Origin: Jaapia argillacea MUCL 33604
Lineage: Eukaryota > Basidiomycota > Agaricomycetes > Jaapiales > Jaapiaceae
Length of the DNA stretch: 64,000 nucleotides
Assembly (NCBI GenBank): GCA_000697665.1
Contig: KL197729.1
Span: 12,997-76,996, forward strand
Direction: 5' to 3'
In this document: positions 2,177 through 53,345 of the stretch, piece by piece
Numbering within the stretch: position 1 is the first letter of the stretch
Layout: each line of letters begins with the position of its first letter
The notes under the pieces: generated by a model
Seen by the model: the letters and a program-made list of their open reading frames with translations, nothing else
Told to the model about the DNA's origin: nothing
The model's database searches: none
Program-made: the position numbers and the translations under genes

Positions 2177-2206
2177 GCAAGGGTAGTAGGGTAGGGGAGG
2201 GTCCTC

Positions 2207-28786: not shown

Positions 28787-30685
28787 ATGTTAGACCCGGT
28801 AAGCAGCTCTCACCTTGACTAGTACCGATAAAAATAACCGTCGCTCGAACAAGTAGGGCTACGCAATCACTCGGCCTTACCCTTGGCCTCGTTTCGGACC
28901 TATATTTCTGGTTGTGTCATGCATCGTCCTCATCGTCCTCACATTACTTAACGGTTAGCCTTTACCTGTATTGTTATCCTCCGTCTATAGCTGAAGCGGT
29001 TGTAGTTGCGGTTGCCGGTTATGAGACAGTAACAGTGACTCGAATCGACAAGAATGTTACCCAGCAGATGTGGTGGACACCCTTCATCCCTCGAGCTTTT
29101 CGGGCGACGACGACATGTGACAGTTCCGTCTTAAACGTCGGTGACACCTTTATGACCAACAACAGTATATTTCAGTGGACTGTTCTTGGTGCATCAGTGG
29201 GTGTTCTACACTTTCGGCGTAACAACTTCCTGTCTCAGGAGTCAAACAGCTCGGTGATCCCCTTCAGGGTGGTGCTTACGAGAATGGTGGATTTCCATAC
29301 TCAGCAGCTCCCATGTCCTCCTGCGACTCAGCAGCCGGGTCTACTGAGATACATGTAGACGTCAATGTGGCAACTGTGACGGTCGTGGTGAGTCTTGTTG
29401 CCGACGACCGCATGTCATTGCCTCACTATGTTACAGTCAATTCTTGCTTGCGACATCGGGACTAGGATGTCTGTCCTTATCCAGGCTACATGGCAATGGA
29501 ACCCCAATTCTAGGGGATACTGGCTCATGAGCCTCTTGAGTGGACCTGTATTTGACGTTCTCTTGAGGTTATCTCAAGATCTTCTCGAGGCATTCCTTAC
29601 TTCTCCCCCTCCGGGAACTGAGGCAATACTCCGCCTCGGCGTTATTGGTAACCCTTACTGCCCATCCTTTCAAGATTCGAACGGGACGGTCCTTTTTCAA
29701 CCCTCCCAAGAAGACGAACTTCAATGTGCGCGGGAACCACGCAGTGTTGGTTTCCAATTACGCGCGGTCTCCTGGACTAATGGTTCCTCGTCATATGAAC
29801 CCGATAACGACGGCCTGGACTACACGACACCTGCACTCCGAAACCTCCTGCAGGCTGCGATGGCCGCAGCCGAGATCGACTTGGGGATCTACAAGGAAAA
29901 CTCGATATACTTTGACATGGAAATGTTCAATGCCACAATTGAGCCGAATCCCTTGCTCACCGGTTCACATTTCGTCGGAAGACCAGGCGATGGTAATCTG
30001 AGCAATCCGTATATCATATCCAGCAGCACAGCGAACAACCTCAGCGGTGCCCAAATCTTGAGGATGTACCCAGTCCCTCCTTTGTATCCGGTCGCCCTTC
30101 CCCTCAATCGCTCTTTCCAACTCCCTGCTATCATCGAAGTATCGTACTTGTGCCACGACCTACGGATCAAGTCACCACTCGCCTTCATGTCATCAGTATT
30201 TGTGGGCGTGAGTTGTCTTCTGATTACACGTCTTCGATGGGACTTCGCTCATTTCCTCCAGACTATCTCCATGTTCATGGCATTCAGGTCTATCGTGCTT
30301 CTCATTGCCACTGTCCTTGCTAAGCGTTATTCGGAAAGAGGTTAGATTTTTTGTACTTTCTTCTCTTCCTTTCGGGACTGAACGCGTTACGATCGTCTTA
30401 GCCAATTATTGCGAAGGATCTCTCGCCTTGGATGAGGGGATATCTCTAGTCGAGAGTCGCCATGTTCAAGCGGCGGTTCCTCCTATTATGGTTACCCAGA
30501 ACAACGCGATGCTTGAGATGGAGACCTTCCACGACCGAACCGAATCGGAAGTCACGCTCTCCGCCCAACCTGCGACCAGTCACCTCGCCAAGGACGATGG
30601 GGCGAGGGTTTACGATACCCAGGACAATTATCAATGGTCATCGGAACTTCGTGCGCTACTTGGGAAAACTCCCGAAGAGACGTAA
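28787..30685 (+). CDS. family gene A: two-TM protein, 523 aa
   Basis: Function unknown. Seven exons (28787-28798, 28857-28953, 29006-29196, 29250-29387, 29437-30207, 30262-30340, 30402-30685) give exactly 524 codons; the introns are 50-61 nt. Exon 1 is a 12-nt microexon, MLDP. Then come ITRPYPWPRFGP and a membrane helix (residues about 17-37), GYETVTVTR, the marker QQMWWTPFIPRA, GDTFMTNNSIFQWT, PMSSC, VDVNVATVTV, and a large exon-5 domain with DLLEAFL..PPPG, AAAEIDLGIY, YFDMEMFNATIEPNP and SYLCHDLRIKSP. A second helix follows (about 405-423, MFMAFRSIVLLIATVLAKRY), then a 94-residue acidic tail ending LLGKTPEET. The middle has several N-glycosylation sequons, so it is probably extracellular and the tail cytoplasmic. 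The pattern fits an uncharacterised Agaricomycete family I recall, but no search was possible. Confidence 0.85.
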
Positions 30686-31747
30686 CTCTACTCCTCGTAA
30701 ACCGGGAAGGATTTCTAAGTTCCATTGTACAGTTAACTTGTAGCATTGGACGAATTGGGCTCGACTGAGTGGTTGGAGGGGAGGAGTGAGAAGTCGTGAG
30801 CTGTTGTAGGGGGATATGTCTTTGTCGCACAGTCAATCTTCGATCTGATACGAGAACATTGCTGTAATCTTGGATGTGGCGCCCTTGAGATTGCGCAGAT
30901 GCACGGGCAGGCCTCGACGATGACGAATTCCATCGCATCTTATCTCTATTAGGTCCATAACTCACGTTGCCGAACTGAATGGGTGTAAGGTGATTCCACC
31001 TCCCCACAATATTAATGGAGCTTATGCTCCACGTTCGCCAGACCATTCCCTTAAGGAGCTTCGCAGATTGAGTCGATGAGGCCCCAACATCGCACATACG
31101 CTGATACGTGGGTATTGGGCTCTTACCCTTCTCACTGCCACGAATGACCTAGTTATAGAGAGAGCCAAGAGAGGTCGACGAGTTTCGAGAGGCAAGATGC
31201 ATGGACGGAAATACAGAGAGGGGAATAGGTCAAACTTAGCTGAAGGTACAAGAACTACGACCTCAGAAGGTTTTCTTTTCGATGGAGACTCGAAGATACC
31301 AAAGGCGGTTATTCATTGCGCAGCTTTGATTCCGCAATGACTTTGAGCGAGCGAAGTTCAAGTTGGTAAATCCGCGAGAGCACTTCAGGCACGCAAGGGC
31401 GAAATCGTTGGCCACCCACGGTGAGATGAGGTCTCCATCGATGTCTCGCCATTCCTGTTCGACGAGTTGGGCCTAAATTGAAAGAAAGTCCCCACGACAT
31501 TCGGGTAAGACACTTGCATCGTAATACGCCTTAACGTGCACTAGCGGAGAAGGTGAGATTCTGTCACTGGAGGTATGGCGGAGAAGGGACTCATCAACGA
31601 TAAGGTCGCGATTTGTGCCGAGGACGTCGTTCGCATGGACCTCTACAGTGAGATCTCCACTTTGAAGAGTAAAAGGGTGTAGACATGACTCACCTGATTG
31701 AAGCAACGCATTATAGCCGCCTGCAGATGTTGGTGAAAGGCCATTTT
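30686..31747. other. array spacer between A and HUA1 relic 1
   Basis: No gene. It contains blocks repeated after other family genes: CTCGACTGAGTGGTTGG just past each stop, a block near 31190-31250 (recurring near 35940-36000 and 53920-53990), and a block near 31540-31690 that recurs near 36060-36200, 40020-40090 and 47260-47420. Confidence 0.5.
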
Positions 31748-32815
31748 AGCATTAAGTCCCACGTTGGCATTGACCCGGTCTTAGCCAATTCGGCGGTAGT
31801 GGTCCTGGGTATCTATAAGAACCAGACGGAATTAGTCTGGGTAAGAGTGAAGGGAGGAGAAGGGGGAGGGGTCCTTGGAGGAAGGCATCCAGGGTGAGTA
31901 GGCGATTGCGGGAGTATATAGTTTTGAGTACTTGACCCAGCATTTTGAGAAGGGATGGGTTAGGTCGCGTTCCTTATATCCCGTGTTACTGCCTGTTGGG
32001 TAGAAGTGTTTGTGAGTGAGAAGGAAGGATCTGGGAAAGGAGACGATGGGAGATCAATTCGAAAAGCGAAAAGAAGAGGTGATAGGAAGACCGAGAAGAG
32101 AAGAGAAAAGTGAATAAATTGGCGAACGTAAACATTAACATGAAAAGCATCCCTCCATTGTCCATCCAGCCGAACTCGATGAGAATCGCAAAGACGAATC
32201 AGTGATACAGAGAAAGGAGCCAAGGTGAAGGCAATGACCGAATCCAAAACGTGATGGAGTGAACAGAGACGTACATTTCCAACATTCAAACCTTAACAAT
32301 TGGTGGTCTTAATGAAGACAAGTCTTCAGATCTCGAAGGGGTATGTCGGTTTGGTGGCGGGGGTGGACTGAGGTTCGTACTTGAGCTCGCTCTTCGTGCA
32401 CCCGAACCGGTCGCTTGTCTACCGACAGTCCCAGGGTAATTATTTTTCCACGGGTTGTTGTTAGCAGATCGAGAGCCGGTAAGCTGAGGGGAGAGATATG
32501 CGTCCCTGGCAGCGCTGACGACTCCCTGTTGGTAAATTAACGACTCGAGTTTGTTGGCCTGTCGGCTGCTGTGGTTGTGGTTGGTATGGGGAGGGCCCCT
32601 AACCGCGAGGTTGTTGAGCTGGTGGGATAATTGCAGGAATGGGAGCAGGTTGGAATGGACGACGGGAGTGACCGACTTCGATAGTGCTCTCTCCATGACG
32701 GGTGGAGGTGGAGGCAGTGTACGCGGGTGGAGGTTTGTGACGACGCTTGCGAGAGACCTATTGGGTTCGGTGTCATATGCGGTGTGCGAAATGGGTTTCG
32801 CGATGTCGTTGCCAT
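31748..32815 (-). pseudogene. HUA1 relic 1
   Basis: Decayed copy of the HUA1-like gene, same strand. The ATG and MATTSRNPFRTP start at 32815 are kept. The middle of exon 1 has lost segments, including everything between the SLRPP codons and the zinc motif, so the frame is broken. The intron 1 region and the exon 2/3 border (SPTHPGCLPPR, YPGPLPPNWLRPGQ) are still recognisable. It ends without the C-terminal CxxC motifs. Confidence 0.8.
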
Positions 32816-33031
32816 CCTGGTGCAATACTCATCAGCTTACAGCTCGTACGAGGTTGAGCAATGGTGGTGACGACTTACGGAGACTGGAGAGATGGATACC
32901 AATGCAGGAGTATCTCATGGACGGCGTATATAGAGAATATAGATGCTGTGACGGCTGAATGGTACTCTGCGGCTGTGTATCAGACGTCAGTGCGAAGAGG
33001 AGAGCGAACAGAACAGCCAAGACTGTGGGGT

Positions 33032-33054
33032 CACGTGGAAGCCAAGATAAGATG
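33032..33054. promoter_or_regulatory. CACGTGG/GATAAG cassette, gene B
   Basis: CACGTGG at 33032-33038 and GATAAGATG at 33046-33054. The order is reversed and only one GATAAG remains, compared with copies A and C, so the cassette is partly eroded, in keeping with gene B itself. Confidence 0.6.
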
Positions 33055-33613
33055 TCCTGCCTGGCGTGTCTGTCAGCCTATCTCCTCTGTTGAGGGCCAA
33101 CGCCGACTACGCCGCTATTCTTTCTCTCGAGGTCTAAGCATGTATATCCGATTCTGACTCCTTCAGCATACCGATTTTCTCTCAAAGGTTTCTCTGCAGC
33201 GAAATCTGCAATGGGCAAGGCCTACTGACACTGGATCTCACTGATAACCGGCGATTCACGACCCAGTGAACCACTAGTTCATCAACCGTCACATTGATGA
33301 GGCCAGGGTCCTAACCATGCTCGAAATGTCTGCATCACAGGAACTCGCATGAATTACGTAGCGCCTTCGTGGAAATGAGAAGCACAGCCAAACCAAAGCC
33401 TTCAATATGGAAATCGCATGCAGTGCAGCTCACTCGTGTACCCTATCATGATGAATACGAGGATCTTCTCTTGGAACGCCCGAACTTAAGCTTAACAAAA
33501 GAGCTTCGCCTCATTCTGAGCTAACAAATAGTACACTTCGCCTACGACCAGCGGTATCTCAAGTTGTTGCCCCAACTATCGTTCGGCTCATTCTCGAAGA
33601 CCGCCCCTCTAAC

Positions 33614-35533
33614 ATGTTAGACCCGGTAAGCAGCTCCCACCTTGACTAGTGCCGATAAACAATAACTGTCATCCGAACAAGTAGGACTACGCAATCACCC
33701 GACCTTATCCTTGGCCTCGTTTCGGACCCATATTCCTCGTTGTGTCATGTATCGTGCTCATCGTGCTCACCTTGCTTAACGGCTAGCCTTTAAGTACCTG
33801 CGTTGTTATCCTCCGCCTATAGCTAAAGTGAATCTAGTTGCGGTTGCCGGCTATGAGACCGTAACAGTGGCTCGAAGCGACAAGAATGCTACGCAGCAGA
33901 TGTGGTGGACACCCTTCATCCCTCGAGCGCTTCGGGCAACGACAACATGTGAGAGCTACGTCTTAAACGTCGGCGACACCTATGCGACGAACAACAGCAT
34001 ACTTCAATGGACTGTCATGGGTGTACACGTGGGTGTTCTACACTTTCGCCGTCGCGAGCTCATATCTCAGGGGTCAGGCAGGTTGTTGATCATACCGCCA
34101 GACCGCTGAGACCGGAGGCTGGATTTCAATACTCCGCAACACCCATGTCCTTCTGTAGCCCAGAACGTGGTGGTACTCGGATCATTGTAGATGTAAACAT
34201 GGCAACTGTGATGGCAACGGCGAGTCTTGCTGCCTACGACTACACATCATGGCCTAACTGTTTTACAGTCAAATTTTATCTGCAACATCGGGACTGGTAT
34301 GTCTTTCTTTATCCAAGCCACATATGAATGGCAAATTGCCGGTCTCGAGTCTGCGGCTGAGTGGGTTGGTTCGGTGCCTATACTTGACGTTCTCTGGAGG
34401 TTATCTGGAGATCTCCTCGAGGCATTCCTCACCCCTCCCCCTCCGGGAATTAAGACATTACTCCGCCTCGTTGTATTGGGTGGAAGTTACTGCCCATCCT
34501 TTCAAGATCCGAATGGGACGGTCCTTTTCGAACCCACTCAAGCAGACGAACTGCAATGTGCACGAGAACCACGCGACGTTGGTTTCGAAGTAATCGAGGT
34601 TTCCTGGACCAATGGTTCCTCGTCATTTCAACTCGATGATGGCGGCCTGGGCTACACAACACCCACATTACGAAACCTCCTGCAGGCTGTGACAGCCGCA
34701 GCCGAGATCGACTTGGGGATCTACAACAAAAACTCGATATACTTCGACATGGGGATGTTCAATGCCACGATTAAGCCAAATCCCTTGCTCACCGGCTCAC
34801 ACTTTGTTGGAATCCCAGGTGATACTAATCTGAGTGATCCATATGACGTATCCAGCAGCACAGCGAACAACCTCAGTGGTGCCCAAATATTGAGGATGTA
34901 TCCTTCGTCTTCGTCGTCGGGTTCGGGGTCCATTCCCATCGATCGCGTTTACCAACTCCCTGCTATCATCGAAGTATCGTACTTGTGCCACGACCTACGG
35001 ATCAAGTCACCACCCGCCTTCATCTCATCGGTATTTGTGGGCGTGAGTTGTCGTCTGATCACACGTCCTCGATGGGGCTTAACTCGTTTCCTCCAGACTA
35101 TCTCGACGTTCATGGCATTCAGGGCTTTCGTGCTGCTCATCGCCACCGTCCTTGCCAAGCGTTATTCGGAAAGAGGTTAGATTTATTGTGCTTTTCTTCC
35201 CTCTATTTCAGGGCTGAACACGTTACGATCGTTTTAGCGAATTATTGCGAAGGATCGCTCGCCTTGGAGGAGGGAATATCTCAAGCGGAGAGTCGTCATG
35301 CTCAGGGGGCGGTTCCTTCCATTGAGGTCACTGAGAACGGCGTGATGCTTGAGATGGAGACTTTGCACGACCGAACCGGATCGGATGTCACGCTCTCCAC
35401 CCAACCCGCCTCTCCAAGGACGATGGGTCGAAGGTTTATGATACCGATAACAATTCTCAATCGTCATCGGAACTTAGTACGCTGCTTGGGAAAAACCCCG
35501 AAGAGACGTAAGTCTGCTCTTCATAAACTGTGA
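33614..35533 (+). CDS. family gene B, drifting copy (528 aa if read)
   Basis: Paralogue of gene A with identical exon layout (33614-33625, 33685-33781, 33838-34028, 34082-34219, 34269-35042, 35097-35175, 35238-35533). Two donors are GC instead of GT: GCTAGC at 33782 and GCGAGT at 34220. GC-AG introns do exist, so splicing may survive or be weakened. In the last exon a 10-nt deletion at about 35409/35410, relative to C, shifts the frame. The conserved tail end (..ALLG.TPEET) is replaced by about 45 basic residues ending KRRKSALHKL. Domain motifs otherwise match A, including QQMWWTPFIPRA, AAAEIDLGIY and SYLCHDLRIKSP, and both membrane segments are kept. It is either an early pseudogene or a copy with a changed cytoplasmic tail. 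Confidence 0.75.
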
Positions 35534-36229
35534 AGGATTTCTAAGTTCCGTTTTGGCAGTTAAGGCATCGACGTAATGGACTCGACTGAGTGGTTGGGAG
35601 TAAGAAGCCGCGAGCTGTGTAGGGGGTTATGTCTTTTGTCGCACACTCAATCTCCGATCTGATACGAGAACATTGCTGTGATCTTGGATGTGGTGCCTTT
35701 GAGATTGCGCAGATGTGCGGGCAGGCCTCGACGATGGCGAATTGCATCACATCTTATTTCTATTAGGTCCATAACTCACGTTCCCCTTCAGGAGCTTCGC
35801 AGCAGGACGAGAATATCCAGATTGAGTTGATGAGGCCCCCAACATCGCACATACGCCGATACGAGGGTATTGGGACTCTTACTCTTGTCACTGCCACGAA
35901 TGACCTAGTTGTAGAGAGAGCCAAGAGAGATCGACGAGCATCGAGAGACAAGGTACATGGACGGATATGCAGAGCGGGAAATAGATCAAACTTATCTGAA
36001 GGTAGGAGGCCACGAGACGACATTGTTGGCCACCCATGGCGAGAGAAGGTTGCCCTCGATGTTTCACCAGTCCTGTTCGACGGCGGGTAAGACGCTTGGA
36101 TCGTAGTACACCCCGATGTGCACTGGCGGGGGAGAAGGGACTCACCATCGACACGGTCACGATTTACGCCAAGGACGTCATCGTCATAACCTTGAATAGA
36201 CCCTCCCAATAACACCTGGCATAGTCTTC
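35534..36229. other. array spacer between B and HUA1 relic 2
   Basis: No gene; repeated spacer blocks as in 30686-31747, in the same order but with some pieces missing. Confidence 0.5.
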
Positions 36230-37030
36230 TAACAAACCTCCCAATCCCCTCTGTTGCCCATCGGCTCGTTGACATTGACTGGGTCTTAACCAATCGGCGA
36301 TGGGGGTAGTTGACATTTATAACAAGGAGTCGGAAATATTCTGGGTAACAGGGAGGGGGGAGGGGAGAGGGGGAGGATCCTCGGAGGGGAGAGGGTGAGT
36401 AGGGGATTGCCGACGTACATGATCTTGAGTATTTTACCCAGCATTTTGAACAGGGGTTGGTTAGGTTACGTCCTTTGTAGCCGGTGTCATTGCATTTGTG
36501 TGTGTGTGTATACGGAGAGAAGGATGTTTACGAGTGAGAAGCAGGATTGGGGAGGGGAGTGAACTAAAAAGACGAAATCGAAGGAAGAAGACAGGGGAGA
36601 ACGAGCACGAGAACAAGACCCAGCCGGGAGGAAAGCGAGGCAGATCAATAAATATGCATACGAATATGAACGACATCGCTCCATCATGGACCTTTGCCAC
36701 CAACAACGATCTAGGAAAATTGCCAAGACGGACGGGTAAAAAGGAGGAAGCAGCTAAAAACTAACAACTGAAACCAAAATGAGCCAAGACGTACATTTCC
36801 AACATTTGAACCCAGTAGGATAAACCAATACTTTCCCGCCCCTCAACAACGGATGACCAGACACGGGTACCTTGGTAGGCTTCCCATCAGCTTCTGCCCG
36901 ACTTCAACCATTAGCGCTGGATGTACTTGAGGAGGATGATCGCGGTGGAGGAGCACCAGTAGGAGGAGCATACCCCGAAGGAGAAGGTCGATTAGGAGTT
37001 GAAGGAGCTGAAGAGGTCTCGAGTTCGCAT
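36230..37030 (-). pseudogene. HUA1 relic 2
   Basis: Holds the 3' part of HUA1 exon 1 (SAPSTPNRPSPSGYAPPTGA, then VSGHPLLRGGKVLVYPTG with the KCWKC knuckle), a recognisable intron donor GTACGT, intron 1 and parts of exon 2. The 5' half of exon 1 and the C-terminal CxxC region are missing, so no full protein is possible. Confidence 0.75.
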
Positions 37031-37769
37031 ATATGACGGTCATATGACGGTTCATTTGCGCAAATATTAGTTTCCGCGCCCCGCGTAATAAATCCCACGC
37101 GCGCTGTACGAACCCAACCGCGCCGTTTCAGCCTGTGACGGCTAAGTGGATCGGTGAAAAGAGGAGAGCGAACAGAACGGCCAAGACTGCGCGGTCGCGT
37201 GGCAGATAAGATAAGATATGTATGTACAGCAGCCACGTGGCCTGATCGTCACCCTCCAAATCCCCGAACCAGGTCTCCTTAGTCCAGGACTCACCAAAGT
37301 TGACTGGGCCGCGGTTCTGGCTCCTTCAGCATACTACTTTGGCCTCAAACGTTTTAGAGCGACATCCACAACAGGGAAGGCCCACTGATGCTGGATCTCA
37401 CTGATAACCGACGATTCCACGTCCCAGTCATTCGTCAACGCGTCGACGGCCACATTGGGTAAGGCCAGGGCCTGACCATGCTCGAAACGTCTGTATCACA
37501 GGATGTCGCATGAGCGCCGGGCTTCGTTGAAATGAGGAGCAAAGCCAAACCATTCAATATGGAAATCGCACGCTGTGCGGCTCACTCGTGTACACTATCG
37601 TGATCGATACGAGGATGAAACTTTGTCTTGGAACACCTGAACTTAAGCTTAACAAAAAGCTTCGCCTCATGCTCAGCTAACAGCCAGTACAATTGGCCCA
37701 CGACCAGCGGTACCTCAAGTTGTTGCTCCGACTATCGTTTTGCTCATTCTCGAAGACCGCCCCTCTAGC
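37031..37769. other. upstream region of gene C
   Basis: Contains the GATAAG/CACGTGG cassette and the conserved blocks also found in 27964-28786, in the same order and ending in the same sequence before the ATG. Confidence 0.55.
37205..37240. promoter_or_regulatory. GATAAG tandem plus CACGTGG cassette, gene C
   Basis: GATAAGATAAGATA at 37205-37218, then CACGTGG at 37234-37240, with spacing close to that of gene A. Confidence 0.7.
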
Positions 37770-39630
37770 ATGTTAGACCCAGTAAGCAGCGCTCACCCTT
37801 CATTAATTCATTAGTGCCGATAAGGATAACCGTCGCTCGAACAATTAGGGCTACGCAATCACTAGGCCTTACCCTTGGCCTCGTTTCGGACCCATATTCC
37901 TCGTTGTGTCATGCATCGTCCTCATCGTCCTCACACTGCTTAACGGTTAGCATTTACCTGGCTTGTTATCCTCCGTCTATAGCTAAAGCGTTCGTAGTTG
38001 CGGTTACCGGTTATGAGACCGTAACAGTGGCTCGAAGCAACAAGAACGTTACACAGCAGATGTGGTGGACGCCCTTCATCCCTCGATCTCTTCGAGCAAC
38101 GATGGCATGTGATAGCCACCTGCTCAATGTCGGGGACACCTTTACAACCAATAATGGCATGTTTCAATGGAGTGTCACTGGTGTAAGTGTGAGTGGCCTA
38201 CACTTTCAGCGGACGTCTCTCCACGTCTCAAGCGGTCAACTCAGAACTCTGATTATGATGAACCTTTCCCGGACGCTGGGTTCGAATACTCTGCGAGGCC
38301 TATGTCCTTCTGTGCACCATCACGAGAGTCCAATGCGACAAGTATCACTGCAGATGTAACCACCGCGGCCGTGACGGCTTGGGTGAGTCTTGTTACCTAT
38401 GACCGAGTATTATGTTCTAACTGTCTTACAGTTATTTTTTATTTGCGATACCGGGACTGGTTTAGTTTTCGAGATTCAGGGGACCTGGAAATGGCAAACC
38501 TCCCAGCCTGCGACTGATAAACAAATTTCGCCCGTTTCCTCGATCATATATTTCATCATTGAGTTCATTCTCAAGTTCTTGGCTCAAGATCTTCTCGATG
38601 CAGCCCTTATACCTCCCCCTCCAGGAATCGAAGCACCCCTACGAATAATTGCAACGGGAGGGAGTTACTGTCCATCCTTACAGAATACGGACGGGGAGTA
38701 TCTTTTTCAACCCAACCAAGCAGAGGCGCTTCAATGTGCGCAGGAACCGCTTCATGTCAATTTCTCCGGAGGCGTATTCTCTTCGATCTACGATTCCTAT
38801 AAACTCAATGCTACCGGCCTGGACTTCACGAACACAGCCCTCAGAAACTTCCTCAAGGCCTCAGTAGCCGCGGCCGAGATTGATTTAGGGATATACAGAA
38901 ACAGCTCGCTATACTTCGACATGGAAATGTTCAACGCGACGATCGAGGCTAATCCTATGCCGTATGCCTTGATGAACAACACTGGGATGAACATCAGCAA
39001 TGCCCAATATTTGAGGATGGCCCATTATCTAGCAATCCCTATCGATGGCGCTTTCCAGCGCCCTTCTATAATCAACGTATCGTACTTGTGCCACGAACTA
39101 CGGATCAAGTCACCACTCTCCTTCATCTCATCGGTATTTGTGGGCGTGAGTTGTCTTCTGACCACACGTCCTTGATAGGGCTTAGCTCATTTCCTCCAGA
39201 CTATCTCCATGTTCATGGCATTCAGGTCTTTCGTGCTACTCATCGCCAACATCCTTGCTAAGCGATATTCGGAAAAAGGTTAGATTTTTTGTGCACATCT
39301 TCTCTCCATTTCTGGGCTGGACGCGTTGCCATCGTCTTAGCCAATCATTGTGAAGGATCTCTCGCCTTGGAGGCCTTGGAGGAGGGTAGATCTCCGGTCG
39401 AGGGTCGCGAGGTTCAAGCGGCGGTTCCTTCCATTGAGATTATTGAGAACGACGTGATGCTTGAGATGGAGACTTTCCATGGCCGAACCGGATCGGAAGT
39501 CACTCTCTCCGCCCAACCCGCGACCAGCCACCTTTCCAAGGACGATGGGACGGTGGTTTATAATACTGAGGGAGATTCTCAATCGTCGGAACTTAGTACA
39601 CTGCTTGGGGAAACTCCCGAAGAGACGTAA
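37770..39630 (+). CDS. family gene C: two-TM protein, 506 aa
   Basis: Intact paralogue of gene A. Exons 37770-37781, 37849-37945, 37998-38188, 38245-38382, 38432-39145, 39200-39278 and 39341-39630 sum to exactly 507 codons. The N-terminal ITRPYPWPRFGP and membrane anchor, QQMWWTPFIPRS, GDTFTTNNGMFQWS, RPMSFC, AAAEIDLGIY, YFDMEMFNATIEANP, SYLCHELRIKSP, the second helix (SMFMAFRSFVLLIANILA) and the acidic tail ending LLGETPEET are all present. Exon 5 is 19 codons shorter than in A, mostly through loss of the variable STANNLSGAQ region. The Cys pair of the YC..LQC segment is retained (SYCPSLQ, LQCAQEP). Like the other copies, the stop codon lies inside a GTAAGT donor-like string. Confidence 0.85.
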
Positions 39631-40094: not shown

Positions 40095-41100
40095 GCCACG
40101 ATCTCATCTAGCCACATCACAATCTCCTCTGTTGTCTATCGGCTCGTTGGCGTTGACCTGGTCTTAACCAAATCAGCTGTAGTGGTCGTTGGTATCTATG
40201 GCGAAAGTCAGCTTTAGTCTGGGTAAGACGGATGGTAGAAGGAGGAGGGGAGGATCCTTAGAGGAAGGTGTCCAGGGTGAGTGGGCGGTTGCGGTTGTAC
40301 AAGATTTTGAGTATTTTACCCAGCTTTTTGAACAGGGGCGGGTTGGGCTATGTTCTTTGTAGCTGGTGTTGTTGCTTGGTGCGTGTGTATGCGGAGAGAA
40401 TGATGTCTATGAGTGAGGGGGACGATTGGGGACGGGAGAGGACGAAGGAGACGAATCGAAGGAAGAAGAAATTAGAGAATGAGAACGGGAATAAGGACAA
40501 GAGCAAGACCCCGCAGGGAGGAAAGCGAGGCCGGTCAATGAACATGCACATGAATCCTCTATCGTCAGTCTTGGCCATCCCCATCCAACAACGCTGGGTG
40601 AAAATCGCAAAGCCGAACGGGTAACAAGGAGGAAGTAGCCAATAAGGTAACAACCGAAACCAAAATGTAACGAAGTAAGCCAAGACTTACATTTCCAACA
40701 TTCGAATCTAGGTGATTAAACCAATCCTTTCCCATCCCTCAACAACGGATGACCACACACGGGTATATCGGTATATTTCCCATCAGCTTCTACCCGAATT
40801 CCACTATCAGCGCTGGATGTACTTGAGGCGGATGATCAAAGTGGAGGAGCACCAGTAAGGGGAGCATACCCGAAGGCGAAGGTCGGGTGGGAGCTGAAGG
40901 AGCTGAAGAGGTCTCGAGTTCGCGTGCGACGATCCCGGTCCTTCTCCTGGTGCGTAAACGCCTCTGGGATAATCTGATGTGGTTGTACCTGGGATTGGTC
41001 GTCTTAATGAAGACAAGTCTTCAGACCGCCCAGTGGTAAGTGGACTTGGAGGTGAAAGAGGGGCGGGGCGAGGTTCGTACTCGAGCTCGCTCTTCACACG
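40095..41100 (-). pseudogene. HUA1 relic 3
   Basis: Eroded copy covering the middle and end of HUA1 exon 1 (GRSEDLSSLRRPIPG, then YAPGEGPG), the exon 1/intron 1 junction, the CNNTGYK-like start of exon 2 and the exon 2/3 border. Frames are broken at several points; neither the N-terminal start nor the C-terminal CxxC motifs survive. Confidence 0.75.
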
Positions 41101-41208
41101 CCCGAACCAGTCGCTTGTCGACCAAGAGTTACGAATTAGTTGTACGACGAGGAATTATCAGCAGGTCAAGAGCCTGTAGGTCTAGGAGAGACGTCAACGG
41201 TGGGGTAA

Positions 41209-43440: not shown

Positions 43441-43477
43441 GAGGAACGAGCGGTCACAACCCGCGGGTCTCGGCTCG

Positions 43478-43502
43478 GATAGATAAGATAACTCTCACGT
43501 GG
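43478..43502. promoter_or_regulatory. GATAAG/CACGTGG cassette, gene D
   Basis: GATAGATAAGATA at 43478-43490 and CACGTGG at 43496-43502, about 365 bp before the ATG of gene D. Confidence 0.65.
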
Positions 43503-43866
43503 TATCGCGTCTTCCTGACCTCCATCGATTCTCGAACCTCAACCATGCTCATCCTTCTCAGGTTCACCAGCCAGTCTCAATCTATCTTCCCTGACAGCGC
43601 CATTTATACAACCTCGTCCAGACGTCTGTCACCCTCCCCGAGGTCATCAGCACTGCTCACATGCCCTCAGCCATCGCGCGTCCGCTTCCGCGATTGGATG
43701 CTATGATTGTACTCCGTCTTCTTGAGGCTGAGCCGAAAGACAAGCTGTGGCTTAGGTTCAAACATTCTGAGATAACAGATAGCACACTTTGCGTCTTCAC
43801 GAGCAGCGATTCCTCGAGTCGTTCCACTGGCTATCGCTCTGTTCTCTCTCAGAACGCCTCTCCAGG

Positions 43867-45731
43867 ATGTTGACCCCGGTAAGTCGCCTCAGTCTTGGAT
43901 TTTTTTCGTAACACTGACGGTCGTCTGAGAGTAGGACTACCCGATCACCCGACCTTATCCCTGGCGTCATTTCGGACCAATATTCTTCGTTGTGTCGTGC
44001 ATCGTGCTCGCCTTGCTCACGTTACTTAACGGTTAGCCGTGACCGACACTACTACACTCCTCCTACAGCTAAAGCAATCTTAATTAGCTGCGGTCGCCGG
44101 TTATGATACGGTGACAGTCGCTCGAAATGACAAGAACGCTACGCAGCAGATGTGGTGGACACCCCTTATCCCTCGAGCTCTTCGCGCAACGACGACATGT
44201 GACAGTTACCTAATAAATGTCGGCGACACCTTTACAACAAATAACAGCCTGTTTCAATGGACTCTCATTGACGCATTTGTGGGTAATCTATACTTTCGGT
44301 GGTGTAAGTGCATGTCTCAGGGTCAAACATAGTTCGATGAGAACGGGGGTTCATCAGAGGCTGGATTTCAGTACTTTGCAGCACCCATGTCCTTCTGTGG
44401 CCCAAATGAGACAGTCTCGAACCTCGTTGTGGACGTAAACATGGCAACCGTGACGACTTGGGTGAGTCATCTTGAGCATAGTACCATGGCTATCAACACT
44501 TAACTGTCTTACAGACATCTGTTTTTTGTAATACCACAAGTGGTGTGGAATTCGTTATTCAGGGAACATGGCAATGGTCTATCATCCAGTCTAGCCAATC
44601 CATATCAACCCGCCCTGGCCAATACATCAGCTCTCCCCCAGTATTACTTGGACCCATATTTGATGTCCTGTCTCGCTTGGCTCAAGATCTCTATGAGGCA
44701 TTCCTAACTCCTCCCCCTCCTGGAATTGAAAGATTAATCGGCCTTAATGTAGAGGGTTGGGCTAACTCGGATCAATCTGCACAGCAACCAGCCCTTATCG
44801 AGTTCTTTGCAGGCCCGGTTTCTTGGAAGAATGGTTCCTCTGCGTGTTGTATCCACGAGGACGACCTGGGCTACCCGGTGACCGCGTTACAAAACTTCCT
44901 GGCGGCTTTGATAGCTGCAGCAGAGATCGACCTGGGAATATACCAAGAGAACTCGTTATACTTCGACATGGATATGTTCAATGCCACGATTGAGCCGAAC
45001 CCCTTGATCACCGCTCCACACTTTGTGCCAAGCCCAGCCGACATTTATAGTGATCCGGATAATCCGTATGACGTATCCAGCAGCACAGCGAATAACCTCA
45101 GCGGTGCCCAAATCTTGAGGATGTACCCAGCGGTCCCCAGTGATTTGTACATTCCCATCGATCGCGAGTACCAACTCCCTGCTATCATCGAAGTATCGTA
45201 CTTGTGCCACGAACTCCAGATCAAGTCACCGCTTGCCTTCATCTCATCGGTATTTGTGGGCGTGAGTTGTCTTCTGATCGCGCGCCTTCGATGGAACTCA
45301 ACTTGTTTCCTCCAGACCGCTTCGATGTTTATGGCATTCAGGGCTTTTGTGCTGCTCATCGCTACCGTCCTTGCCAAGCGATATTCGGAAAAAGGTAAGA
45401 TATGTGATGTTTGTCTTCTCTTCATGTCAGGGCTGAGCATGTTACGATCCTCTTAGCCAATTATTGCGAAGGGACCCTCGACTTGGAGGAGGGAAGATCT
45501 CGGGTCGAGACCGGTCATGTTCAAGAGGCGATTTCTTCCGTGGAGGTTACTGAGAACGACTTGATATTGGAGATGCAGCCTTTACACGACCGAAACGTAT
45601 CGGAAGCCACACTCTCTGCCCAATCTGCGACCGACCACCTCGCCAAGGGCGATGGGGCGAGGGTTTACGATACCCAGGAAAATTATCAATGGTCATCAGA
45701 ACTTCGTGCGCTGCTTGGGGAAGAGACGTAA
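43867..45731 (+). CDS. family gene D: two-TM protein, 509 aa
   Basis: Intact paralogue. Exons 43867-43878, 43935-44031, 44088-44278, 44333-44461, 44515-45261, 45316-45394 and 45457-45731 sum to 510 codons. It starts MLTP and continues ITRPYPWRHFGP. The exon-3 marker reads QQMWWTPLIPRA. Exon 5 begins TSVFCNTTSGVEFVIQGTW and lacks the YC..LQC cysteine pair of A-C, having a shorter Gln-rich loop instead. AAAEIDLGIY, NPYDVSSSTANNLSGAQILR and SYLCHELQIKSP are present, and the acidic tail ends ALLGEET. From 45167 onward the DNA is identical to gene F (offset 7614), including intron 6 and the 3' flank. The start lies 360-390 bp downstream of its GATAAG cassette. Confidence 0.85.
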
Positions 45732-46089
45732 GTCTGCTCCTCAAAAACCCGGAAGGATTACTAAGTTCGATTGGACAGTTGATCTGTGGCATTGACGAAA
45801 TGGACTCGACTGAGTGGTTGAAGGGAAGGAGTGAAGAGTCGCGGGGCGTTGTATTATGCATAGGGATATATCTAACAATATTTAGTCCAATACGAGAGAC
45901 TTGTTGTATGCGGCGCATCCTTTGAGATCTCGAAGGTGAAATGATATCGATGCTATGACAGGGCGAGGCACGGACCCACTTTTAGACCATATGGGAAGCG
46001 AGAGGAACTGTAAGTCGGGTCGTAAAGATCGCGGGCAGGCGAACGATGACGAATTGCATCTCGTTTCCGGCTTGGGTCCAACTCAAGTT
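45167..46089. repeat. 923-bp identical segment (with 52781-53703)
   Basis: Every base compared by eye is the same at offset 7614, and all translated frames agree. The segment runs from within exon 5 of gene D through its stop codon and spacer, and ends exactly where the N run begins. The sequence just upstream differs (first mismatch at 45166/52780). Confidence 0.85.
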
Positions 46090-46210
46090 NNNNNNNNNNN
46101 NNNNNNNNNNNNNNNNNNNNNNNNNNNNNNNNNNNNNNNNNNNNNNNNNNNNNNNNNNNNNNNNNNNNNNNNNNNNNNNNNNNNNNNNNNNNNNNNNNNN
46201 NNNNNNNNNN
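46090..46210. other. assembly gap, 121 N
   Basis: Run of N between the spacer after gene D and the last exons of gene E. About 1.3 kb of gene E coding region is missing, so the gap length is not the true distance. Confidence 0.99.
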
Positions 46211-46729
46211 ACCCGCCTTCGTCTCATCGGTATTTGTTGGTGTGAGTTGTGTTCTGACCGCTCATCTTCAATGGGCCTTAACTCGTGTCCTCCAGACCGC
46301 CTCAATGTTTATGGCGTTCAGGGCTTTTGTGCTGCTCATCGCCACCGTCCTTGCCAAGCGACACTCGGAAAAAGGTAGGGTGTTCTGTGCTTCTCTTCTC
46401 GTCATTTCAGGGCTGAACAAATTTCGATCCTCTTAGCCAATCATTGCGAAGGATCCCTAGATGTGGAGGGGGGGAGATGTCAGGTTGAGACTGGTGAGAC
46501 TGGTCAGGTTCAAGAAGCGGTTCCTTCCGTGGAGGTTACTGAGAACGACTTGATATTGGAGATGGAGCCTTTACACGACCGAAGGGTATCGGAAACCACA
46601 CTCTCCGCTCAACCCACGACCAGCTACTTCTCCAAGGATGATGGATCGACGGTTTATGATTCCGAGGACAAATTTCAATCATCATCGGAAAGTAGTGCGC
46701 TGCTCGGGATAACTCCCGGTGAGACGTAA
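46211..46729 (+). CDS. family gene E, 3' part only
   Basis: The end of exon 5 (46211-46241, PAFVSSVFVG), exon 6 (46296-46374, second membrane helix, MAFRAFVLLIATVLAKRHSE) and exon 7 (46437-46729) match the family exactly in phase and length. The tail has a small insertion (ETGETGQVQEAV) and ends LLGITPGET. The tail resembles that of D and F (VTENDLILEMEPLHDR) more than A-C. The first four exons and most of exon 5 are hidden by the gap or were lost, so whether it is a whole gene cannot be judged. Confidence 0.8.
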
Positions 46730-47499
46730 GTCTGCTCCTCATAAACCCGGAAGGATTACTAAGTTCCATTGGACAGTTAATCTGTGGCACTGACGAAATG
46801 GACTCGACTGAGTGGTTGAAGGGGAGGAATGAGAAGTCGTGAGCTGGTGTTGGGGGAGATGTCCTTGTCCCACACTCGATCTTCGATCTGATGCGAGAAC
46901 ATGGCTGTAATCTCGGATGTGGCGCTTTTGAGATTGTGCAGGTGGACTGATATCGATGTTATGACATAGCGAGTTTACTGTCCTGTCTACCAAAAAATGA
47001 GTCGAGACAGGAAACAAACATTAGAATACGAGCCCCCAGGCCATATAAGAAGCGAGAGGAACTTTAGGTCGGGTCGGCGTCATGATGGTCACGGGTCAGC
47101 CTCGACGATGGTAAAAGCGCGCAGGCTGTCGAGGGTGAGATAAGGTTGCCATCGATGTCTCACCAGTCCTATTCGACGAGTTCGGCTTGTTAAATTACAA
47201 AAAGTCCCTACAACTCACGGTCGGGTAAGAGACTTGAATCGTAGTACGCCCAACGTGCACTAGTGGAGAAGGTGAGACCCTGTCACAGGACGTATGGGGG
47301 ACTCGGAGAAGGGGACTCACCATCGACAAGGTCGCGATCCGCGCCGAGGACATCATTGTCACGCACCTCTACAAGGGGATCCTCCTCTTAGAATGGTGCA
47401 AAGTCTGTAGACATGGTTGATCTGATTGAAGCGACGTTGTGTGCATCCCAAGTCGATTTGAGGCCTCTTCAATTGGACACGAAATCTGGAGAACTACCC
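46730..47499. other. array spacer after gene E
   Basis: The post-stop flank and spacer blocks match those after C and A (for example ATCTTCGATCTGATGCGAGAAC and the 47240-47420 block). No gene. Confidence 0.5.
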
Positions 47500-48500
47500 G
47501 ACCGATTGCCACAATTTCTATATGAAAATTGAGGTAATCGGCGAGTCCGAGGTGCCCAGAACAAAAACGACAGGATCAGAAATTCTCTCACTTTTTCTGG
47601 GTCGTAGCCCCCTCTCGGCACCTTTGGGCTCCCTGGTGTTCGTGTTTGAAGATAGAAATGTGTCGCAGGAAGAGGGGGAGAAACCAAGCCAGGAATTGAG
47701 AGTGGTCTACCAGAGTCCGAACTTGAACGACTCATGCTGTATCCAGTCCCCAAACTTAAATTGACCCTCCCATGAAAACCTGCCAGGACCCCATCTAAAA
47801 AGCCTCCAAGTCCCCTCTGGTGTCCATCGGCTCGTTGGAATCGACCTGGTCTTCACCAATTCGGCGGTAGTGGTCGTTGGTACCTATGAAAAGCAATCAG
47901 ACTTAGTCTGCGTAAGAAGGGCGGGGAGAGGGAGGAGGGGGAGGATCCTTGGAGGAAGGCGTCCAGGGTGAGTAGGCGATTGCGGAAGAACATGTTTTGG
48001 GGATTTACCCAACAGTTTTGAACAGAAGTGAGTTAGGTTGCGTTCTTTGTAGCCCGTGTTGTTGCATTTGTGTGTGCGGAGAGAAGGATGTTTCAGGGTG
48101 AGCAGGTGGATTGGGAGAGGAAGGCGGATTGGGAGAGGAGAGAATGAAGGAGACGAAAGGATGAAGAAAGGGAGAACGAGAATGAGAATGAGAACGAGAA
48201 AGACCCAGCAGAGAGGAAGGCGACGCATGTCAACGAACATACATATGAATATATGAACGACATTCCTCTATTACCGGTCTTTTCCAACCCATCCAACAAG
48301 GCTCGATGAAAATCGCAAAGACGAGTGTGTAACAAGGAGGAAGCAGTTGATAAAGTAACGACCGAAACCAAAATGTGATAAAGTGAGGCAAGACGTACAT
48401 TTACAGCATTCGAACCCGGGCCCAGTCGATACTTTCCCAACCCTCAACAACGGACGACCAGACACCAGTACCTTGGTTGATGCATTTGAGGCGGATGATG
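47500..48500 (-). pseudogene. HUA1 relic 4
   Basis: Keeps part of exon 3 (SMSRSSSDSGRPLSIPGLVS at about 47750-47650), the exon 3 start near 47880, a stretch of exon 2 and intron 1, and the exon 1 end near 48400-48470 (SGRPLLRVGKV). Order and strand match the parental gene, but the frames are broken and the C-terminal zinc motif is absent. Confidence 0.75.
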
Positions 48501-48711
48501 GAGATAGTGGAGCACCACTAGGGGACGGAAGGATAATTAAGTTCGAACCATCGGACAGTTAATCCAATGTAGCGTCGGCGAAATAAACTTGGCTGAGTGG
48601 TTGGAGGGAAGGAGTGGTCATTTTGTCTCTTCAATCTCTGTGGAAAGAGGAGATTGTTGACGACCACAGGCAGGACGGCAATAAGTTGTGCAGGAACAAG
48701 TTGTCGCGGCA

Positions 48712-48746
48712 GATAAGATAAGATAACCCTTTATGGCAAGACGTGG
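48712..48746. promoter_or_regulatory. GATAAG tandem cassette, orphan
   Basis: GATAAGATAAGATAA at 48712-48726 with a degraded GACGTGG at 48740-48746. No family gene starts within 2.8 kb downstream. Confidence 0.55.
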
Positions 48747-49960
48747 CAGGTCGTTCCCGAAGAATCCCGAATCTCAACCAACCGCAACCAGCGAGTCGCA
48801 CTCAGATCTTGGCGACGTCCAAGGCAGCTCCACCTCATCCTCGTCCGACCAACGTCCAGTTGTAGTCACTTCGCCGTCAATATCCTTGGCTCATCTCACT
48901 TATACCGTACGGAGATCCTTGATCTTCCTAGGTCCGTTGACTTCCTAACCATGCCCGCACTGGGAGGTTACGCGGTTACGAGTATTCAGGCCTGATGTCC
49001 GTGAGTTCTCGATGACGCTTGCTTTTTACTGAGGCGCAGTTTGAGGATGAACAAGAGTGTCGAACGGAAGAGCGAATTCTCTGGTAACATCCAATTGCTA
49101 TCCTGTCCTCCATCTCTCATCTTGGGATGTCTGACTTGTTGGGCCTTATCATTCGGCGTAGTCAACTCCTCAGCCGTTTTATCGGTGTCTGGGCCGATAT
49201 CCGACTCCGTTTGTTGTTCACAATGTTACCTCCGAAAATTAGACCTTCGCGTTTAGTTCAAACTGGTTGAGCGCGAGATTCGGCGTTCGTATCCCGCCTT
49301 GCGACGTCGTTCTCGAGCAAATGTTGATATGACTTGCGATGAAGTAGACAGCAAGGACATCAACCGAGGATTTGCAGCCAGGTACGCTCGCTCGTTTCCT
49401 TTTTCCGACGTGAAGCAGCATCTAATCCGCCGTTGACAGCCTTGCATTCACACCCGCAATGCCTCGCTGTTGTCGCCACAAAGAGAATACCACGGCCAAG
49501 AAATATTCAGCTACTGAGATGATGATTTCTGAGCTATGGTTTTTTCTTGAGGGCGGCGAGTATGGCTGGGGTATCCAAGAGCAGGGGTTGATTGGGAGCA
49601 CATCCCGTTGCCTGAAACTTGGTGTGTTCATTTCCGGTCTTGCTAGCTCGTGGCGCTGATATGCTCTCGGCGCATGTCAAAGAAGCTGTAGAGATCTTTC
49701 GGCCTCTCATTAGCACGCCCTTTTAGTATTATCTCTTACTAGGGTGAACTAGCATCCTCTTACTCTCTCCATGACTGGGTGTCGGGTGAGGGAGTGTATG
49801 CGGCCGGAGGTTCTGCCTCTAGTGGGAGGGGGATGAATCTGGGGTGTAGATTATCCTGTGATAGCGCACATGAGGTGTGCGGATGGGGTGGTCGTGTACG
49901 CTAGACAGGACGGAGGGTGGCGAGGAGACGGATTTGACGGGCTGGGGTTGGAAGAAGCCA
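48712..49960. repeat. duplicated spacer block, right copy
   Basis: Counterpart of 41209-43440, about 1 kb shorter because the 41.35-41.95 kb segment and others are missing here. Landmarks occur in the same order. Confidence 0.6.
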
Positions 49961-50065
49961 GCGAGGTCGTTGGACATCGCTGTTGGAGAGGGTTAACGTG
50001 GGTTGGTATCGCGACAGCATTTCCGAGAGAACAATTGGGTTTGGTGCAATACGTGAGGATGACTG
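49740..50065 (-). pseudogene. HUA1 relic 6, exon 1 fragment
   Basis: On the minus strand this matches the proline-rich 5' part of HUA1 exon 1 (the segment equivalent to 27650-27930), with broken frames. It sits where the HUA1 half of the duplicated unit is expected before gene F. Confidence 0.6.
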
Positions 50066-50154
50066 GTGCGTGCAGTAGTTTTCGATAGATTATTGTCGTC
50101 CTGATACATCCGCTTTGTTGTTAAGTGCTTTTGATCGGGATCCATGATAACGTC

Positions 50155-50722
50155 ATGATCTCCCCCTTGCTTGTTCGGCCCAGGAAGCCCAGCAACCAAT
50201 TCCCAAGTTGGCTGAACTTATTGGCGACTCGCTTCATCAAAAGAAAGCGGCAGGGGTCTCGACTAGGAGATACTGAATTGCTATCAGTCACTTGTGAAGA
50301 GAGGTCCGTGCGGCTCTGCACCGATCCCATGCCATTCATCGATGAGAAGCCTTCCTCTTCCCTCGTAGAAAATTCATTCGCCCTGATCTCTCACTTCACA
50401 TCTGCTCCCATTCTCCGCTTTGTAGATGGATGCAATCCTGACGAAGCAATTTATGTGCCGAGGTAGTTGTACAGTATCTTCCTTGCTTGCGCTCGAGAGA
50501 AGAGTGGCTGCCGCTCGCTCAAAAACCGCTGCACATTCTATTCCTCCGGTCGTGCCTTACTACGCAATAGAACCGCAAAACTTGATTCGATATCTCTCAT
50601 TGACAAGTCCAACTCCTCGCAGTCTTCCCGACGAAACCCCAGAATCATGTTTATCGATTCGAGCCGCCTGGATCGCTGGTGACATTCTCATCCACCACCA
50701 AGGAAGTGCCACACCTCGATAA
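50155..50722 (+). CDS. unrecognised ORFs between HUA1 relic 6 and gene F
   Basis: Two overlapping plus-strand frames. 50155-50466 (ATG, 103 residues) reads VRPRKPSNQFPSWLNLLATR and VDGCNPDEAIYVPR-stop; 50426-50722 (ATG, 98 residues) reads YYAIEPQNLIRYLSLTSPTP and ETPESCLSIRAAWIAGDILI. Both look more protein-like than chance, but neither has a known motif nor a good intron to join them. They are not repeated in the other array units. Confidence 0.3.
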
Positions 50723-51190
50723 GTCGGCTCTCGTTGATTGGGACCCGAGGAACGCCCCGATGGTCTGGGCGGTTTCTGATGCTCGACGGGATGCCGTACA
50801 GGGAAGAAGGACGGGAGTTTCACTGAGCGGTGTTACACAATGATGCGGTGGAGGGGAGGCCGATTCCGTGTTGAAGGTCATACAGACCCTTCCATCCTCC
50901 CAGTCGATGAACTAGTGGTGCGAGATCAATATCTACATCGCTACTGGCGAGGTATGGCCCTCTTAATTCGGTTTATAAACACTCGGTCGGTGACTTTCTG
51001 TTTCGGGGTAACCTTAATCAGGTTTGTTCACGTCACATAAGCGCAGCGATGGCCATCACAGGACGTTTCTGGTCATCAAGCCTTTTTCGTTCCTCTCAAC
51101 CTCTGGGGGATATCCAATGACTAGAAAGATACTCCCATTAAGTAGTCCTATTCCAGTATTCCAAACACTCCGGATACTCACCTGAAGCTT

Positions 51191-51502
51191 TCAGCAATTC
51201 AATTCCTCTGTTGTCCCATTGACCATTTCGCATGCGTCAAGTATTTCTACGGTTTGGTGCCACGTTCTACACTCGTTGCAACGTGCCTCAATATTGATGA
51301 CCCTATCGCGAGAAAACAGTGGAGTGGGGGTTTGAGGAGGAGATTGGTGCGTAAAATTTTGATCTAAGATGGCTTGGTAATGGGATGGCATAAGTGGTTC
51401 TTTTTGGCGCTCCTTGACGTCAGATTTGAACATCACTACAGGCTGTCGCCATTTTTCTCTCCACAAACGCCTCTCCCGCCCTTCGGCCTCACACTCAAAC
51501 AT
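51191..51502 (-). CDS. unrecognised 103-aa ORF, head-to-head with gene F
   Basis: ATG at 51502 (MFECEAEGRERRLWREKWRQ); the frame contains the pair IEARCNECRTWHQTVEILDA and ends TEELNC-stop. It starts only 45 bp from the ATG of gene F on the other strand, in a segment partly shared with the 5' UTR of the family, so it may be an accident of that sequence. Confidence 0.25.
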   Translation of the reverse strand: MFECEAEGRERRLWREKWRQPVVMFKSDVKERQKEPLMPSHYQAILDQNFTHQSPPQTPTPLFSRDRVINIEARCNECRTWHQTVEILDACEMVNGTTEELNC

Positions 51503-51547
51503 CCTGAGATACTATCGCTGTCTTCTCTCTGAGAGCGCCTCTCCAAC

Positions 51548-53345
51548 ATGTTTAACCCAGTCAGTAGTTTCCACCTTGGATTCTGTTAATAAGAATAACC
51601 GTCGTCTGAGGGAGTAGGACTACGCAATCACTCGACCCTATCCCTGGCGTCGTTTCGGACCCATATTCTTCGTTGCGTCATGCATCGTGCTCGTCTTGCT
51701 CACGTTACTTAACGGTTAGCCGTGGCCGAGACTACTACGCTCCTCCTACAGCTAAAGCAATCTTATTTAGCTGCGGTTGCAGGTTATGAGACTGTGACAG
51801 TGGCTCGAAATGACAAGAACGGTACCCAGCAGATGTGGTGGACGCCCCTCATCCCTCGAGCTCTTCGCGCAACGACGACATGTGACAATTACCTTCTAAG
51901 TGTTGGCGACACCTTTATAACAAATTGCTCTCTGTTTCAATGGACTCTCCTTGAAGCATGGGTGAGTAATCTACGCTTTTGGTGAAATACATGCGTCTCA
52001 AGTCAGACTTAGTCCGAAGGGGGTTCTCGGATGGAGACTGGATTTCAATACCCTGAAGAGCCCATGTCCTGTGGCCCATCGAGCTCGGATTCGGGCGTCG
52101 ACGTGGACATAAACGTTGCAACCGTGGCGACTTGGGTGAGTCATCGTGCGCATAAGACAATGGGTATCAAGAGTTCACTGTCTTACAGACAACTTTTGGG
52201 TGCACCACCACAAGTGGTGTGTTTTATATTATTCAGGGAACATGGCGATGGAGTATCCTCCAGTCTGGGTCAAGCGCCGGTGGCGGAGAGCACACACGCC
52301 TTCCCCTCAGTGATGTTCTCGTTCGCTTGGCTCAAGACCTCCTCGAGGTCTTGCTGGCTCCACCTCCTCCGGGAAACGAAGAATTGGTCCGCCTTAGTGT
52401 ACAGGGTATGCCTACCACATTTCAAGCTAAACCGGATCCAAAACCACTCGAAGTCAGTATCCATGGAGGTGCGGTCTCCTGGGCTAATGGCACCTCGTCA
52501 TATCGAATAGACAATGCCAACCTGGACTACACGACACCCGGATTCCAAAATTTCCTGAAGGCTTTGATAAGCGCAGGCGAGATCGACTTGGGGGTCTACA
52601 ACGAACATTCGATATACTTCAGCATGGAGATGTTCAATGCCACGATTGACCCGAATCCTCTGCTCACCGGCTCACACTTTGTGCAGTCAGACAAGGGAAG
52701 CAACCTCAGCGGTGCCCAATACTTGAGGATGTACCCAGACAGACCTCAGAGGGCATTGACAACCATTCCCATCGATCGCAAGTACCAACTCCCTGCTATC
52801 ATCGAAGTATCGTACTTGTGCCACGAACTCCAGATCAAGTCACCGCTTGCCTTCATCTCATCGGTATTTGTGGGCGTGAGTTGTCTTCTGATCGCGCGCC
52901 TTCGATGGAACTCAACTTGTTTCCTCCAGACCGCTTCGATGTTTATGGCATTCAGGGCTTTTGTGCTGCTCATCGCTACCGTCCTTGCCAAGCGATATTC
53001 GGAAAAAGGTAAGATATGTGATGTTTGTCTTCTCTTCATGTCAGGGCTGAGCATGTTACGATCCTCTTAGCCAATTATTGCGAAGGGACCCTCGACTTGG
53101 AGGAGGGAAGATCTCGGGTCGAGACCGGTCATGTTCAAGAGGCGATTTCTTCCGTGGAGGTTACTGAGAACGACTTGATATTGGAGATGCAGCCTTTACA
53201 CGACCGAAACGTATCGGAAGCCACACTCTCTGCCCAATCTGCGACCGACCACCTCGCCAAGGGCGATGGGGCGAGGGTTTACGATACCCAGGAAAATTAT
53301 CAATGGTCATCAGAACTTCGTGCGCTGCTTGGGGAAGAGACGTAA
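51548..53345 (+). CDS. family gene F: two-TM protein, 487 aa
   Basis: Intact paralogue. Exons 51548-51559, 51618-51714, 51771-51961, 52013-52135, 52189-52875, 52930-53008 and 53071-53345 sum to 488 codons. It starts MFNP, with donor GTCAGT instead of GTAAGT. It then has ITRPYPWRRFGP, a membrane anchor, QQMWWTPLIPRA, EEPMSC, TTFGCTTTSGVFYIIQGTW, a Lys/Pro-rich loop lacking the YC..LQC cysteine pair, AGEIDLGVY, YFSMEMFNATIDPNP and NLSGAQYLRMYP. From 52781 to the stop it is identical to gene D, so the second membrane helix and acidic tail are the same protein sequence. The upstream half is clearly diverged from D, which makes F a mosaic. Confidence 0.85.

Follow-up and report, generated by a model that had tools for sequence, protein, structure and literature searches.

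A tandem gene array in Jaapia argillacea encoding a family of predicted two-helix membrane glycoproteins

Gene models and number of copies in the array

We analyzed 64,000 nucleotides of the Jaapia argillacea MUCL 33604 genome (assembly GCA_000697665.1, contig KL197729.1, positions 12,997 to 76,996, forward strand; hereafter, the window). An array of related genes lies on its plus strand, with the first start at position 28787 and the last end at 53345 (Table 1). Elsewhere, the window carries a gene for an HMG-box protein at 17300-18322 (−) (Pfam PF00505, E 6e-11), a gene at 8261-9772 (−) for a DUF6699 protein (Pfam E 1e-30) whose long N-terminal part is rich in glycine and proline, and ORFs at 55826-59093 (+) that resemble a large fungal DNA transposon protein and that we take to be KDZ-like; a Pfam scan of part of them (55826-57181) gave no match. 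Scans of the window for Rfam families and tRNAs gave no hit, and the telomere repeat was absent from positions 1-10000 of the array contig (C21), the first 200 bases of which are N.

The gene models built here contain seven exons of 12/97/191/123-138/687-774/79/275-296 nt in copies A, B, C, D, and F, and the lengths of exons 1, 2, 3, and 6 are the same in all five copies that have a 5' end. The introns measure 49-67 nt, with phases 0,1,0,0,0,1, and are bounded by GT donors, except for GC at introns 2 and 4 of copy B, and by CAG or TAG acceptors. An upstream acceptor of intron 2 and a donor of intron 3 located fifteen bases upstream were also considered and dropped in favor of the downstream choices, which keep the frame open in each of the five copies and have sites close to the consensus. 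For copy C, a protein-guided spliced aligner returned a model that differs only at the end of exon 4. Exons 4 and 5 have lengths that are multiples of 3 in all eight fully modelled copies (A, B, C, D, F, and copies G, H, and I from outside the array), which is not independent evidence, the models having been picked to keep the frame. Units A and B share 83% DNA identity over 2.7 kb, far beyond chance. This is a genuine, well-built gene family, and our own models agree with the seven exons, the intron phases, the fixed lengths of exons 2, 3, and 6, and the range of exon 5 given in a preliminary description of the locus. It had also counted four copies as open from end to end, and four are open as assembled: A, C, F, and, only through a doubtful tract that it shares with F, D. 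The tail of copy B leaves the common frame and reaches another stop at 35531-35533; this copy is probably decaying.

Table 1. Features of the array and of the neighboring gene (window positions).
Feature	Position	Strand	Basis or remark
Upstream neighbor, proline-rich gene with CxxCxGxG-like end	25994..27963	−	ORFs
Copy A	28787..30685	+	523 aa, open; gene model
Copy A exons	28787-28798, 28857-28953, 29006-29196, 29250-29387, 29437-30207, 30262-30340, 30402-30685	+	gene model
Incomplete neighbor-gene copy in unit B	31880..33012	−	blastn 80-91%, four pieces with gaps between
Copy B	33614..35533	+	two GC donors, tail off common frame; gene model
Copy B exons	33614-33625, 33685-33781, 33838-34028, 34082-34219, 34269-35042, 35097-35175, 35238-35533	+	gene model
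Neighbor-gene fragments	36789-37028, 47642-48121		interspersed in array
Copy C	37770..39630	+	506 aa, open; gene model, spliced aligner
Copy C exons	37770-37781, 37849-37945, 37998-38188, 38245-38382, 38432-39145, 39200-39278, 39341-39630	+	gene model
Neighbor-gene fragment between C and D	40644..41123	−	blastn 78%
Copy D, 5' part, with exons 1-4 and the bulk of exon 5	43867..45166	+	independent sequence; gene model
F-identical tract, apparent 3' end of D (stop 45731)	45167..46089	+	0 mismatches in 923 bp
Assembly gap, 121 N	46090..46210		sequence
Copy E, 3' part (exons 6 and 7 and the end of exon 5)	46211..46729	+	519 nt, tail open
Copy F	51548..53345	+	487 aa, open; gene model
Copy F exons	51548-51559, 51618-51714, 51771-51961, 52013-52135, 52189-52875, 52930-53008, 53071-53345	+	gene model

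The same description had counted six plus-strand paralogues. Five of them, each with a 5' end, were recovered here; the sixth, E, consists of a 3' end behind the assembly gap. The tract of D in front of this gap does not differ at a single position from 52781-53703 of copy F, introns and downstream DNA included; it stops exactly at the gap, and E starts directly behind it, about where D would have to go on. D and F share only 76% identity at their 5' parts, E and F 84% at their 3' ends, and the DNA downstream of the E stop is 86% identical to that of C. The 3' half of D is thus most likely a contig-end chimera, with E as its true 3' end, and because the 5' part of D and the 3' part of E most likely belong to one gene, the array probably comprises five genes and not six. 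That six genes are real, the identity of D and F being due to very recent gene conversion and E being a truncated gene, seems rather unlikely to us. Conversion itself is plausible in this family, since A and C show a silent divergence of 0.18 in the flanks and 0.43 in the core, but an identity that is complete even in introns and 3' DNA, an end that coincides with the gap, the position of E, and the lower identity of the D 5' part and of E to F all speak against it. The case illustrates how a repeat-induced assembly error can mimic an extra gene copy.

Family members and anatomy of the predicted proteins

A protein search of the genome with copy A revealed seven further loci outside the array, at about 87.3, 93.1, and 130-132 kb on the same contig (C21), at about 205, 221, and 225 kb on contig C20, and at about 1012 kb on contig C9. 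The family thus has at least 13 loci including E, all locus counts being lower bounds; queries with the divergent members M and N yielded no additional loci in the genome up to E 10. Copy G has an in-frame stop and a 12-nt deletion, copy H stays open as far as a TAA, and copy I as far as a TGA that lies two codons beyond the end of the alignment. Protein identities across 12 sequences range from 39 to 86%. Each of the 12 copies modelled (E has no such model) contains introns 2-6, with a displacement of intron 3 by a few residues in the members J, K, M, and N. Intron 1 was found in each modelled copy whose exon 1 is resolved, which applies to A-D, F-I, and K but not to J, M, and N. Introns that the spliced aligner added in H, J, K, and M were discarded: in H, a 48-nt intron within exon 5, as this exon is open without it, and tail introns in J, K, and M, after in-frame reading of exon 7. 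In member N, exon 2 is about 42 nt longer (C9:1013316-1013451, locus L005) owing to an in-frame duplication inside the first hydrophobic segment.

Database searches gave no name to these proteins. No Pfam family matched A and C, and nine members together gave five Pfam rows, all at chance level (best E 0.027, in two members). A profile search of NCBIfam gave no match, and one of PDB gave two rows up to E 10, the better of which (Glycoprotein G1, E 0.1) is not meaningful. Scans of viral and prokaryote contigs gave no confirmed relative, and nothing on the family was found in literature searches covering titles and the openings of abstracts. The family is undescribed in the Pfam, NCBIfam, and PDB libraries searched. 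As the preliminary description had also suggested, we presume that it resembles uncharacterised Agaricomycete transmembrane proteins, of no named family, with a TRPYP..F start and a YLCQ.P.LKS..LFVS end. It would share with them the N-terminal TRPYPW/Y motif, the first hydrophobic segment, and a C..F.TN pattern. A profile comparison with a sequence composed to this TRPYP pattern gave 96% probability over 116 columns, a value that is not independent, the query having been written out after the window was viewed, and the C-terminal half of the query remained unaligned. Searched against the J. argillacea genome, the same query gave five weak matches, three of which are exon 2 of this family (E 0.17-0.53).

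With a Kyte-Doolittle call (window 19, ≥1.6), a first hydrophobic segment was detected in all 12 sequences and a second in 11 of them, N falling below the cut; weaker extra stretches also pass in A and C. The second segment is about 31 residues long and has an internal arginine in A-D and F-I. Between the two segments lies a domain with conserved features (numbering of A): sequons at 53 and 347 in 12/12 sequences and at 88 and 311 in 10/12, cysteines 125, 151, and 385 in 12/12, and Cys 74 in 11/12. A further cysteine, at position 433 just past the second segment, is kept in 11/12. Ectodomain sequons exceeded those of shuffled sequences at P≤0.05 in 10 of the 12 sequences (A: 8 vs. 3.2), the excess falling short of significance in F (P 0.061) and H (0.077), and the tails carry 0 or 1 sequon. 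Because of its conserved sequons and cysteines, the domain between the segments is predicted to be outside the cell. Cys 221 and Cys 243 are both kept in eight sequences and both missing in four (D, F, G, and H), the pattern to be expected if a disulfide disappeared together with its loop, which may have been a single event. Instead of a first transmembrane segment, there may be a cleaved signal peptide, several copies having A-V-A before G41; the tail would be cytosolic in either case.

The preliminary description had held that the anchors are kept while the loop changes, and the columns bear this out: 16 of the 31 columns of the second segment, compared with 30 of 164 for residues 101-264, are near-invariant (one residue in 11 or all 12 of the rows). 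Its statement that the tail is acidic and conserved stood only in its first half. Copies A, C, D, and F have acidic tails (pI 4.1-4.4; 9.7 in B), and pI remains at 4.1-4.8 when G, H, and I are included with these four; it is 4.2 in J, and the tails of K (8.7) and N (8.3) are not acidic, the values for J and K coming from imperfect tail models. On the other hand, only 3 of 99 tail columns are near-invariant by this count, in an alignment that contains the imperfect J, K, and M tails, and the tail dN/dS (0.56, eight C21 copies) equals that of the variable ectodomain. A motif ExxxL[LM], presumably an acidic dileucine sorting signal, occurs near the C-terminus in 9 of 12 in-frame tails (A, C, D, E, F, H, I, K, and M, the D tail being identical to that of F) and is missing from G, J, and N. 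The C20 and C9 members J, K, M, and N (loci L003, L004, and L005) have a tail motif of their own, like DWSKDAYDAVSP in M, unlike the C21 members.

Uneven divergence and selection along the protein

The A-C contrast in silent divergence (synonymous sites and introns) given above (P 6e-10) has its counterpart in B-C (flanks 0.21, core 0.46; P 7e-9), by Fisher's test on rounded counts with sites treated as independent. Among 28 pairs, four pass 0.05/28, and F vs. G and F vs. H show the opposite tendency without significance. Trees built from the two parts differ, the flanks joining A with C and the core A with B, but the flank alignment does not significantly reject A+B (p-AU 0.09). An origin of the C core in a distant lineage was dropped on this p-AU value and on the core tree, which keeps A, B, and C together (92/93), with C on a long branch. 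We therefore claim only that silent divergence is uneven between the core and flanks of C; conversion of the flanks is its likely cause.

The repeat units also hold pieces of the upstream neighbor, a gene that we take to be Hua1-like and whose two ORFs have no Pfam match. A further piece lies upstream of copy G (positions 519-772 of locus L001), and none of the copies found by blastn is complete. This arrangement points to unequal duplication of units in which, afterwards, mainly the membrane-protein genes would have stayed open.

Pooled NG86 dN/dS over the eight C21 copies was 0.19 in exons 1-2, 0.26 in exon 3, 0.64 in exon 4, 0.58/0.30/0.58/0.55 along exon 5, and 0.26 in the second segment, B being omitted from the tail and the D-F pair from residue 321 on. 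A ratio near 1 in all exons, which the preliminary description had named as counting against it, was thus not observed. Residues 1-96 were constrained in seven close pairs (pN/pS 0.15-0.37, P<0.001 in six of the seven), whereas residues 97-190 gave 0.92, 1.06, 0.98, 1.16, 0.88, 0.78, and 0.85 in the same pairs, none significantly different from 1 (P 0.3-1); the pairs are not independent of one another, and some include the damaged copies B and G. Values above 1 were seen for D-F and F-H at 97-190 and for F-H at 321-367, none of them significant, and the last was the highest of any stretch tested (1.91, P 0.33). None of 44 pooled 25-codon intervals from the eight copies exceeded 1 (maximum 0.97). 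The term "diversifying" used in the preliminary description did not hold in the sense of a ratio significantly above 1. Residues 97-190 are a free or diversifying patch in a constrained protein, for which positive selection is not proven.

Possible roles of the family

As a whole, we read the array as a tandemly amplified family of membrane glycoproteins that would act as surface receptors or adhesins, a reading that we favor only tentatively. Its anatomical part can be held with high confidence; a recognition or receptor role is possible, on a slightly weaker footing than the whole. The two hydrophobic segments would flank an outside domain of about 315-370 residues, glycosylated and disulfide-bonded, with the N-terminus and the tail in the cytosol. 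The conserved second segment would do specific work, such as helix packing, oligomer formation, or signaling, beyond mere anchoring, and the dileucine-type motif of most copies may direct clathrin-dependent sorting. The variable patch would contact something that differs between partners, and a surface receptor or adhesin of hyphae would be the likeliest mechanism. Copies would arise by unequal crossing-over; gene conversion would even out their flanks, and the patch would meanwhile drift or diversify. No fold backs a receptor or adhesin, because structure prediction, which the preliminary description had proposed as a check, yielded nothing usable (AF2 model of exon 5 from a five-row alignment, pLDDT 32.5).

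The array may instead reflect ordinary birth and death, with a housekeeping or fine-tuning membrane protein multiplied by unequal crossing-over, residues 97-190 forming an unconstrained linker or loop, and nothing being recognized. The pN/pS of this patch, near 1 and not above, the decayed copies B and G, the moderate family size, and the incomplete neighbor-gene pieces in the units all agree with such a process, but the cysteines present in at least 11 of the 12 sequences, the conserved motifs around and inside the patch, and the several copies still open despite a silent divergence of about 0.2-0.4 are harder to reconcile with it. Surface recognition is a reasonable guess, and ordinary birth and death is about as likely. 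A channel-like or transmitter protein, in which the helices oligomerise and the outside domain gates, appears improbable. P2X, ASIC, and CDC50-type proteins are two-helix proteins, and here the second segment is the most conserved part, more so than an anchor needs, and both ends are predicted inside. However, the likeness is one of topology without sequence support: neither the PDB profile search nor Pfam gave a meaningful match, and the AF2 model was unusable.

Within the receptor or adhesin reading, a more specific proposal is that the array encodes allorecognition (self/non-self) or partner-recognition receptors of a basidiomycete, which we consider quite unlikely. Fungal allorecognition and animal antigen families occur in tandem and combine conserved anchors with an outside part that varies. 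The family described here shares with them the tandem copies, a variable patch, conversion-like flanks, and decayed members; it differs in that positive or balancing selection is unproven, in a comparison that covers a single genome. The constant helices would then transmit, residues 97-190 and perhaps 321-367 would recognize, and specificities would be maintained by conversion of the flanks on either side of a core that is old and divergent, as in copy C.

The family escapes recognition by Pfam and NCBIfam and yet has a clear anatomy, with a highly conserved membrane helix, two sequons common to all 12 sequences, cysteine pairs, and one free patch. To our knowledge, surface recognition receptors in basidiomycetes are poorly known, and if the patch were polymorphic between strains, these proteins would be a testable candidate for basidiomycete surface recognition.
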